From positions 868,001-932,000 of the forward strand of contig NZ_CP058334.1 in NCBI RefSeq assembly GCF_013391085.1: a stretch of DNA of 64,000 nt, read 5' to 3'. This document shows, piece by piece, positions 697-40,916 of the stretch. A program made the translations under genes and the position numbers. The stretch is from Natronomonas halophila (GTDB lineage: Archaea > Halobacteriota > Halobacteria > Halobacteriales > Haloarculaceae). Under the pieces are notes generated by a model. It ran no database searches, was not told the origin of the DNA, and saw only the letters and a list, made by a program, of their open reading frames with translations. Positions within the stretch are counted from its first letter, which is position 1. Each line of letters opens with the position of its first letter.

Positions 697-744
697 ACAC
701 GCCTATCCGGAAGAACGGGGCAAGAGCGTTTCCCTTCGTTCCCA

Positions 745-1063
745 CTTTTTGCACGAGAACGCGGGTCGCACCCGCTCCAGGGTGCGACCCCGGTTGCGTG
801 GCGGCTTCGCCGCCACGTTATAAGGTCGCGGCTCTGCCGCGACCCACTCGGCAAAAACTTGGGGAAAATATGCGCGCCTCCCTCCAGCCGCGGCCCTGCG
901 GGCCGCGTTAGTCGGTCGACGCTACCGGACTGCGGGCGCCTCCGGCGCCATTGTCCGGCGAACCGCCTCGGGGGCGTTCTCAGGAAGACTCGCTTCGCTC
1001 GTCTTCCAACGCTCTCGTTCGCTCCGCTCACGAGACCTTCGAACGCCCCGCTCGGCGGATGCT
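745..1063. repeat. Modular hairpin repeat, copy A
   Basis: This fills most of the 387-bp gap between the acidic-protein start and the pssA stop. The left module is TTTTTGCAC, a stem region, then GGCAAAAAC (745-858). Here the left module contains three inserted hairpins: GGGTCGCACCC with its complement, GTGGCGGC/GCCGCCAC, and GGTCGCGGC/GCCGCGACC. A conserved block GGGGAAAATATGCGCG follows, then a hairpin framed by CTCCAGCC and GTTAGTCGG. The right module runs from GAACCGC (960) to GCGGATGCT (1055-1063) and encloses GGGGCGTTC paired with GAACGCCCC. No convincing ORF is present. It shares its layout with copies at 9651 and 40737. Confidence 0.8.
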
Positions 1064-4754: not shown

Positions 4755-4980
4755 TGTTCTAAATTGGAACTGCACGGACCGCTGTAGTCGATTGGCGCGG
4801 TTGCGAAACTGGTCGGCGGATGGCCGCCAGCGTGGCGTTACGCCAGCACTACCGCAATCCCAAGCCAGCCAATCGGCCGGCGAGTCGGATTTGCGGTCGT
4901 GCGGTTCCCATGTGCGAGTCGTGGCTTCGCGCACAAAACGGTTTCTACTCGTCGGAACCCAAATCGCGAAAAAAGCGCCC

Positions 4981-9638: not shown

Positions 9639-9650
9639 ATTCATCTCGAA

Positions 9651-9799
9651 CTTTTTGCACGGCGAGCCTTCGGCTCGCCGGCAAAAACTTCGATGAAAAA
9701 GACACTGCGGCCCTCCCTACGGTCGGGCCTTGGTCCCGCGCCTCACTTCGTTCGGCGCGGCGGAACCGCGAGCACGCCTTCGGCGTGCTCGCGGATGCT
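9651..9799. repeat. Modular hairpin repeat, copy B
   Basis: This begins 12 bp after the SRP RNA. The left module is CTTTTTGCAC, stem GGCGAGC/GCTCGCC, then GGCAAAAAC (9651-9687). A G+C-rich middle follows with CGCGCC paired to GGCGCG. The right module runs GAACCGC (9773) through stem GAGCACGCC/GGCGTGCTC to GCGGATGCT (9791-9799). It lacks the long middle block shared by copies A and C. It sits between the SRP RNA and a convergent gene. Confidence 0.8.
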
Positions 9800-19235: not shown

Positions 19236-20588
19236 TTACAGCCGCCGGCTGGCGAGCAGCGCCACCGCCAACAGCGCGAGAGCCGTTAGGACGGCGAAGG
19301 CGATGCCACCCTCACCAGCGGAGCCGTCGGGTTCGGTGGTGGCGGTGTTCTCGCTGGCGTCGGAGGCCGCGGCTTCATCCGCGCTCGCGTCATACACCTC
19401 GTAGACCGAGTACGGACTCGTCATCGAATCGTTCGCGTTGGGCGCCTCGTCGCCCAGCCGTTCCTGGCCGGAGACGGCGATGTAGTGTCTGAGGTCCTCG
19501 GTCAGTTCCGCGTTGCCGGGGCCGAGCTGGACGAGCCACACCGCATCGACCGTGAAGCTCGTCCGGTTGTCGTCGACGTCGAACGTCACGCGCACCGTCG
19601 TGTTGCCGTCGTTCTGGTTGACGTTCTGGTCGACGAGCGTGGCGTTGTGCACCTCGCTGTCGTTGACCCGGACGTTCAGGCTATCGAGGTCGAAGTCGGC
19701 CGCCTCGAGACTCGTGACGTTGATGTAGATGTCAACCTCGTCCTGCCCGGGGTCGGTGTTACTGACCTCCAGGTCGTAGATTGGCTGCTCGGTGCTCTCG
19801 ACCGTGATGTGGCCCGCGTCGGCGTCGGTGATTTCGGGGGTGTCGGGCGTTGGTGTCGGCGTCGGGGTGGGAGTCGGCGTCGCCGTGTCAGTATCGCTTC
19901 CACCGCCGCTGTCACCACCACCGCCGGAGTCGCTCTCGGTCGGCGTCGGGGTGGGTGTCGGCGTCGCCGTCGACGTAGACGACGTCTCCGTCGGCGTGGA
20001 TGTGGACGTTTCCGTCGGCGTCGACGTGGACGTTTCCGTCGGCGTCGGCGTGGATGTCGCAGTCGGCGTCGGTGTGCTCTCGGAAATCGAAAGCGTTCCA
20101 CTCGACGTATCGGATGCCGACTGCGGGTTCACGATGAACTCGATTTGGTAGTCGCCCGCGTCCGGGTTCTGGACGTCGGCGTACTCGGCGATGACGTGGT
20201 CGCCATCGGTGAGGTCGTAGGACCCACCAAGGTTGATTTCGAGCGTTTCACCGTTGTTCGACGAACTGACACCCTGTACGTCGTTGCTGACGTCGGTTTC
20301 GATGCTCCCGTCGTCGTCGGTGTCGATACCGATACGCTGGATGTCGTTCTCGCCGACGTTGCTGACGTCACCGTTCTGACCGGTGGCCTGATAATCGACG
20401 TTGAGCCCGTTCAACGACGAGCCGCCGGCGTCCGACCCGACGGACGCCACGACGGTGTGGGTCGAGGTGTCGCCAGGGGTGTCCGGTTCGGCCGTAATAG
20501 AGGCACTCGATGCGCTACCGACGAACGCGAACGTGCTCGCCACGACAAGCACGGCGAGCAGTACGCTGAGTGTTGTTTTCCGGTTCAT
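19236..20588 (-). CDS. Secreted Thr/Pro-rich surface glycoprotein with C-terminal membrane tail
   Basis: A 450-aa protein. Signal peptide about 1-29 (LSVLLAVLVVASTFAFVG). A beta-rich domain follows (~30-165), then a Thr/Pro/Ser linker (~170-255) built of repeats such as TPTETSTS and TPTPTPTP, interrupted by SDSGGGGDSGGGSD. A second beta domain (~260-390) has N-glycosylation sequons NVT, NAT, NTT and NRT. The C terminus is a tripartite anchor-like tail: acidic linker, hydrophobic helix (IAFAVLTALALLAVALLA) and SRRL. The tail looks like PGF-CTERM but lacks PGF (GEGG instead). It is likely S-layer associated or lipid anchored. Confidence 0.85.
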   Translation of the reverse strand: MNRKTTLSVLLAVLVVASTFAFVGSASSASITAEPDTPGDTSTHTVVASVGSDAGGSSLNGLNVDYQATGQNGDVSNVGENDIQRIGIDTDDDGSIETDVSNDVQGVSSSNNGETLEINLGGSYDLTDGDHVIAEYADVQNPDAGDYQIEFIVNPQSASDTSSGTLSISESTPTPTATSTPTPTETSTSTPTETSTSTPTETSSTSTATPTPTPTPTESDSGGGGDSGGGSDTDTATPTPTPTPTPTPDTPEITDADAGHITVESTEQPIYDLEVSNTDPGQDEVDIYINVTSLEAADFDLDSLNVRVNDSEVHNATLVDQNVNQNDGNTTVRVTFDVDDNRTSFTVDAVWLVQLGPGNAELTEDLRHYIAVSGQERLGDEAPNANDSMTSPYSVYEVYDASADEAAASDASENTATTEPDGSAGEGGIAFAVLTALALLAVALLASRRL

Positions 20589-40110: not shown

Positions 40111-40376
40111 TCGATTCGCTCTTCCATCCATTCGAACTGCGCCTCGACCGATTCGGCGCCCGCGTCGGTCAGCGAATAGACGTCTTCCAGCCCCTCGACG
40201 TGTTTTTCGACGTAGCCGTTCTTTTCCAGCGAATCCAGCGCGCCGTAGAACCGGTCGGGCTTGACCCGCCGGTCGTAGCGCGCTTCGAGGTCCGATTTCA
40301 GCGACTGGGCGCGACGCTCCTCGCCGTACAGCAGCACGCAGATATCGCGGCGCAGGCCGCTCGTGAGCCACTCCAT
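40107..40376 (-). CDS. PadR-like winged-helix regulator
   Basis: An 89-aa protein. [20 protein letters not shown] opens the HTH, with [34 protein letters not shown] forming helices 2-3 and the wing, here split as [17 protein letters not shown]. The final helix is [21 protein letters not shown]. The size and pattern fit short archaeal PadR-type repressors. Target unknown. Confidence 0.82.
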
Positions 40377-40461
40377 ACCCCCGATTCGGTGGCGGCCTCA
40401 AAAAGCCCATCCGTCGGCCGCGACCGGTAGTTTCGCATACGCCGCCGTCCTATTCGCGGGT

Positions 40462-40731
40462 ATGTCAACCGCCGAGGCCGACGGAATCTCCGCACGCTAT
40501 CGGGAGACCGACGAGGAACGCCTGCTCGAATTCGAGGCCGACGGCCGCACCGCCGCCATCGCACAGAACATCGAAGGCTACGCCATGCTCAAAGTGCGGC
40601 CCAGCGCCGACGGCGACGAACTCAAACGCTACTACGGCTTCGACATGGCGCTGGACCACGCCGCAGAACTGCTGGCGGTGCCCGTTCACGACCTGCCGAT
40701 TCCCGACGAGGCCGAAGATATGGGGATGTAA
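40462..40731 (+). CDS. Small conserved haloarchaeal protein
   Basis: An 89-aa soluble acidic protein. It starts MSTAEADGISARYRETDEER and continues LEFEADGRTAAIAQNIEGYA, a beta-rich pattern, then HAAELLAVPVHDLPIPDEAEDMGM. No known motif is visible. The frame is open further upstream across the divergent regulator's promoter, but similarity to haloarchaeal relatives, as I recall them, starts here. It ends just before repeat copy C. Function unknown. Confidence 0.72.
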   Translation: MSTAEADGISARYRETDEERLLEFEADGRTAAIAQNIEGYAMLKVRPSADGDELKRYYGFDMALDHAAELLAVPVHDLPIPDEAEDMGM

Positions 40732-40736
40732 ACCCA

Positions 40737-40916
40737 CTTTTTGCACGGCGGGCCTGCGGCCCGCCGGCAAAAACATGGGGAAAATATGCGCGAGAGCCTC
40801 CAGCCGCGCCCTTCGGGCGCGTTAGTCGGCTCTCGCTACGGCGACTCGGCCCTTCGGGTCTCGTCGCCGCGAACCGCCTCGGGGGCCTTCTTCGAAGGCC
40901 CCGCTCGGCGGATGCT
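40737..40916. repeat. Modular hairpin repeat, copy C
   Basis: 180 bp between the small conserved gene and the thiolase. Left module: CTTTTTGCAC, stem GGCGGGC/GCCCGCC, GGCAAAAAC (40737-40774). The block GGGGAAAATATGCGCG matches copy A, then CGAGAGCC...GGCTCTCG encloses the CGCGCCC stem framed by CTCCAGCC and GTTAGTCGG. The right module, GAACCGC (40871) to GCGGATGCT (40908-40916), encloses GGGGCCTTC/GAAGGCCCC. Compared with copy A, the stem bases change in pairs. Confidence 0.8.

Follow-up and report, generated by a model that had tools for sequence, protein, structure and literature searches.

What leaves a series of short blocks in a fixed order while the stems between them change in sequence and stay paired? 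The question is raised by three gene-free elements in the window, the whole stretch of 64,000 nucleotides of Natronomonas halophila DNA analysed here, in which a sequence-only reading had seen selection on structure, as in a structured RNA family or a palindromic mobile element. The shared block order is present as that reading described it, with exact blocks and folds far more stable than those of shuffled DNA (z = -6.9 for copies B and C, -9.2 for copy A). The patterns TTTTTGCAC...GGCAAAAAC and GAACCGC...GCGGATGCT are both exact in copies B and C, against a chance expectation of 0.00 in a pattern search of the window, and occur nowhere else in it. No Rfam family matched any of the three elements, whose parts and host genes are the following.

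741-1063, plus strand: copy A, type 2 element with nested cassettes (blocks exact, fold)
741-864, plus strand: hairpin 1 of copy A, CCCA-C-TTTTTGC ... GCAAAAA-C-TTGGG, whose apex holds a multi-hairpin insert (sequence, fold)
861-876, plus strand: unpaired block of copy A, GGGGAAAATATGCGCG
882-915, plus strand: hairpin 2 of copy A, with a large internal loop, CTCCAGCC / GTTAGTCGG (sequence, fold)
960-1063, plus strand: last hairpin of copy A, GAA-CCGC ... GCGG-ATGCT (sequence, fold)
980-1037, plus strand: nested two-hairpin cassette of copy A, TCAGGAAGAC...GAGACC, just 5' of the last-hairpin loop
9324-9638, plus strand: SRP (7S) RNA, host gene of copy B (RF01857, 198 bits)
9647-9799, plus strand: copy B, type 1 element, immediately downstream of the SRP RNA (blocks exact, fold)
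9647-9692, plus strand: hairpin 1 of copy B, CGAA-C-TTTTTGC-A-[stem]-GCAAAAA-C-TTCG
9693-9705, plus strand: unpaired block of copy B, ATGAAAAAGACAC, the search anchor for 40 type 1 copies
9763-9799, plus strand: last hairpin of copy B, GAACCGC...GCGGATGCT
40363-40731, plus strand: host gene of copy C, 122 aa, stop codon TAA at 40729-40731
40733-40916, plus strand: copy C, type 2 element, 1 nt after its host gene's stop codon (blocks exact, fold)

Copy A is longer than B and C because of the multi-hairpin insert nested in its first hairpin and the two-hairpin insert in its last; the latter cassette also occurs at L004, L005, L012, L033 and L040. This copy is gene-free and lies between two minus-strand genes, antisense to both, with its 5' end 44 nt from the divergent gene start. 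Elsewhere the window holds a minus-strand match to the S15-Halobacteria ribosomal protein leader (4846-4911, RF03143), and tandem 12-24 nt repeats resembling GTCGGCGT (19845-20069) in a predicted minus-strand gene (19236-20588).

The expectation that further copies would exist was borne out well beyond the window. The genome is a single contig of 3,211,682 bases, and exact patterns were scanned in it with reversed patterns as control: the first hairpin gave 42 matches against 0, the last hairpin 61 against 5 and the TGRKGAAAATATGCGCG block 51 against 0. Merging these matches yields 90 elements, 87 of them additional to the three in the window. In all, 40 copies are of type 1, to which copy B belongs, and 50 are of type 2, the type of A and C. 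Type 1 carries the block ATGAAAAAGACAC, usually followed by YGGTCCC, and type 2 the block GAAAATATGCGCG. An element measures about 150-330 nt and comprises four or more hairpins joined by conserved unpaired blocks. Hairpin 1, of the general form NNNN-C-TTTTTGC-A-[stem]-GCAAAAA-C-N'N'N'N', is followed by an A-rich unpaired block, a middle hairpin, a GC-rich hairpin and the last hairpin, which reads GAA-[CCGC..GCGG]-ATGCT or GAA-[ACGC..GCGT]-ATGCT; many hairpins have a TC/TC internal loop. About one third of the copies harbor nested cassettes of about 55-70 nt, usually with two hairpins, at hairpin apices or in linkers. In one copy (L027, 1501-1681) the inner part of hairpin 2 is reverse-complemented (GACTAAC...GGCTGGA, not TCCAGCC...GTTAGTC), an inversion within the stem that is also found at L128.

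The covariation of the stems was evaluated on 19 distinct type 1 copies, with an SRP RNA alignment as control. In this set 98.4% of the cells pair and 35 cells carry two-sided changes, a result that none of 500 shuffles reached, so that stems differing yet paired are amply confirmed. The outer four bases of hairpin 1 vary as well (CGAA, GAAC and GAAA; CGAC, GAAT and CGCA in relatives) and their partners vary alongside (CGAA/TTCG, GAAC/GTTC, GAAA/TTTC), extending the first hairpin beyond the blocks first recognized. Selection on RNA would strongly favor G-U pairs. The variable pairs of the elements contain none in 225 cells, against 169 of 1351 in SRP RNA (p = 1.2e-12, a guide only, the cells being non-independent), and among about 1700 paired positions a separate scan counted 4 G-T and 6 A-C mismatches, with no excess of G-T over A-C.

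Two close genomes, G107 and G077, show how the stems change. They share 14 sites, whose flanks are mostly 91-97% identical. At the SRP site (L257/L275), both arms of the hairpin 1 stem are replaced, while the remaining ~110 nt of the element do not differ. At L250/L282 and L260/L266 the middle cassette is of a different type and both ends are shared, and at L261/L273 G077 lacks a two-hairpin cassette of ~60 nt that G107 carries between two AACG repeats. Among seven loop changes inside unchanged stems, four are exact reverse complements; one of the three others probably lies outside any element. The stem covariation is thus real, yet unlike that of RNA helices: the absence of G-U, the block replacement and the loop inversion identify it as the outcome of events on DNA palindromes. 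A structured RNA family, one of the two possibilities named in the sequence-only reading, is not supported by this covariation, in which stems change as whole blocks, loops flip and middle cassettes swap. Striking covariation of stems therefore need not mean selection on RNA structure, of which this family is a clear case, and G-U content, loop inversion and block replacement between close relatives offer a simple test for other families of intergenic hairpins.

These exchanges also bear on two other accounts of the family. Chance terminator hairpins behind genes could have grown in place by palindrome-forming template switching and cassette exchange, without any movement of the whole; loop inversion and stem replacement are indeed active processes at the level of palindromes. 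We consider this very improbable because the block order is shared across copies: unpaired blocks of 13-16 nt in the same order in 90 copies demand common descent of the whole. Alternatively, each copy could be a structured 3' UTR RNA or terminator, selected at its host gene and vertically inherited, the likeness between copies arising by gene conversion and not by movement. The very stable folds and the conserved unpaired blocks speak for such an RNA, which we nevertheless hold to be somewhat unlikely, given stems without G-U wobble, loops that flip as DNA and middle parts that swap to unrelated types.

The position of the copies, missed by the sequence-only reading, is an unexpected feature of the family. 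A codon-usage finder trained on the window served to call the neighboring genes, and in 52 copies the 5' end falls within -2 to +4 nt of a same-strand stop codon; six further copies begin 14-19 nt behind the stop, mostly after an apparent remnant of another element start. Of the single copies with a same-strand upstream gene, 40 of 48 lie in the -2 to +4 interval, against 6.0 expected under random placement in the free space (P = 4e-36). The 3' end is unconstrained, at distances from -1 to more than 1000 nt, and close pairs are always tail to tail with their 5' ends outward (11 of 11). At L003, L035, L036, L037 and L041, the paired elements enclose a spacer of ~75-120 nt with the loose repeats GAGGTAGCC and ACGAGAACT. 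For several antisense copies the distance to the start of a divergent gene is 37-46 nt, which barely clears the room needed by a haloarchaeal promoter. Host genes use TAA or TAG more often than the genes of the window do (45:7 vs 33:28, p = 2e-4), and those identified encode AAA ATPases, a KaiC-type ATPase, Orc1/Cdc6, the large subunit of DNA polymerase D, an EF-G-type factor and a sulfite-reductase-type protein; two others we take, from their sequences, to be a thermosome and a NuoI-like protein. Placement at the ends of structural RNAs recurs in several genera: besides the SRP RNA, the element starts on the very next base after RNase P RNA in relatives (L050, L073, L051) and ~5 nt behind a tRNA in another (L171).

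Each element opens with a T5 tract a few nucleotides behind the stop codon, and T5 tracts occur on the other strand too; a terminator role is suggested by this tract. Placement by a pre-existing T-stretch was considered and discarded as a general explanation: directly behind the same stops, relatives without the element lack a T5, so the position is not simply inherited from an older terminator. For an RNA or terminator selected at each gene, the sense orientation and flush position are favorable, as is the occupation of the same gene ends in several genera, namely those of the thermosome, the KaiC-type ATPase, a CDC48-type AAA ATPase and RNase P RNA. Against it, if transcription stops at T5, most of the element would never be transcribed.

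The distribution of the element adds to the case against vertical inheritance. At the 3' site of the SRP RNA it is present in 8 of 19 members of the genus and absent in 11, three of which (G100, G104 and G117) keep the same downstream gene. Outside the genus the site is filled sporadically (G013, G072, G048, G109 and G434), with diverged relatives in G042, G278, G163, G288, G160 and G182, and is empty in most others; matching gene ends in three element-free relatives manage without the element. G160 and G289 (family f8, genus g43) have two and three SRP RNA matches, respectively, one being usual. Between the convergent genes of L018, the interval is 230 nt with the element in the genome studied and 23 nt in G107, and the reverse case was also found between convergent genes (492 vs 71 nt). 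A whole-element empty site with near-identical flanks was not found among the sites compared; L263/L280, a candidate for one, was rejected as a deletion that left hairpin 1. A 120 nt difference separates L034 from L168 (G104) in the region of an AAA ATPase gene near the host gene of an element.

On a wider scale, the type 1 model (R1, used for finding copies only, its outer 4 bp and hairpin 2 being one column off) scores in 17 of 116 genomes of the taxonomic family, and the exact hairpin 1 pattern occurs in 26 of 391 genomes of the class. The hosts that could be named are Natronomonas, Halorarius and Halosegnis; other haloarchaeal genera also contain relatives, and those in other families are more diverged. 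At some host genes, such as those of the thermosome and the KaiC-type ATPase, an element recurs across at least three genera, a pattern that long retention would fit as well. Viral contigs, plasmids and phages were searched and yielded no copy.

If the element moves, what moves it? The genome has a sole Y1 transposase gene (2909290-2909649, L043), followed by a tnpB-like gene in the ordinary IS200/IS605 layout; inspection of its flanks revealed no element block beside the Y1 gene and none shared with the IS605-type locus. In the genus, the presence of Y1 does not correlate with that of the element: relatives without the element have Y1 genes, and none was found in the element-bearing G094, G104 and G110, which are incomplete genomes. 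An origin from RAYT or Y1 was rejected on this lack of association, and the search for a transposase or other mobiliser of the family found none. Mobilization by an IS200/IS605-type Y1 transposase, an enzyme that recognizes hairpins in single-stranded DNA, would make the family REP- or PATE-like; we consider this improbable. Such an enzyme would suit the bulged hairpins, the orientation-specific placement, the lack of any whole-element target duplication among the copies seen, and the CTAC that 39 of the 50 type 2 copies carry close to hairpin 2, which reads GTAG on the opposite strand. The type 1 consensus lacks this motif; PATEs are, moreover, known in haloarchaea. Nor do the copies behave as MITEs, since the last hairpin differs in sequence from the first and is no inverted copy of it, and no target duplication was seen. 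The palindromic mobile element of the sequence-only reading is the better fit to the dispersed copies, their presence or absence at the same gene ends and the nested cassettes gained or lost, and is weakened by the missing mobiliser and by the lack of copies in the plasmids, phages and viral contigs searched.

The reading that we favor, with about even confidence, is that of a non-autonomous, recombining palindromic repeat specialized for the 3' ends of genes, to which it would supply a putative terminator. The end that carries hairpin 1 and its T5 lies flush with a stop codon or a structural RNA end, the element points into intergenic space, and its other end is free. The T5 at the start, together with the T5 on the other strand, may end transcription; insertion directly behind a gene would then be harmless, and copies would be tolerated or kept. 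Recombination, template switching at palindromes or an enzyme acting in trans may have spread and homogenized the copies, whose stems, loops, middle cassettes and nested two-hairpin cassettes turn over as DNA blocks. A bolder proposal, which we regard as unlikely, is a new type of mobile palindrome that would be directed, with fixed polarity, to the 3' end of any kind of functional sequence, be it a coding gene, RNase P RNA, SRP RNA or a tRNA. Its targeting would sense transcript ends and not a DNA motif, and its hairpins would be kept perfect by DNA-level copying of arms and exchange of cassettes. The recombining, gene-end repeat that we favor leaves one sharp question: what sets it within a few bases of very different gene ends, always with one polarity?

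Among known systems, the BOX elements of Streptococcus pneumoniae are likewise modular, hairpin-forming and intergenic; in sequence, module logic and host, they are set apart from the present family by their description. A literature search for a named family in Natronomonas or other haloarchaea, which covered few subscription journals, returned only the PATEs and SMRs of Haloquadratum and general papers on REPs. REPs, BIMEs and REPINs with their RAYTs resemble the family as dispersed extragenic palindromes in many copies, and bacterial REPs often lie just behind stop codons (PMC12306157). A REP, however, is a single palindrome of 20-40 bp, whereas the elements described here are archaeal, measure about 150-330 nt and chain together at least four hairpins, with cassettes that can be swapped. 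They have no RAYT, show GTAG in type 2 only, and sit within -2 to +4 nt of stop codons as well as at the ends of structural RNAs. According to the part of the published account drawn on here (PMC3119063), the PATEs of the haloarchaeon Haloquadratum walsbyi, like our elements, have no transposase gene and no terminal inverted repeats and carry hairpins near their ends. PATEs share palindromes with IS605-type ends, a link not seen here at L043, the IS605-type locus of the genome, and that part of the account does not describe gene-end placement for them. The SMR-A elements of Haloquadratum (PMC3119063) are short repeats inserted into the palindromes of other repeats, a habit found here in the nested cassettes only, which are two-hairpin units of ~55-70 nt with, in one case, a 4 nt repeat (AACG). 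The family thus partly works like REPs, PATEs and SMRs; it is not filed as a member of any of them because it departs from what defines them in showing no transposase link, in its size and in having several palindromes. Finally, the T5 directly behind the gene recalls the T-stretch terminators of haloarchaea, among which T5C terminates with 95% efficiency in Haloferax volcanii (PMC7237163); those terminators do not depend on a chain of hairpins and lack a conserved body. Should the elements indeed end transcription, they would constitute a portable family of archaeal terminators, where a T-stretch alone has been thought to be enough.
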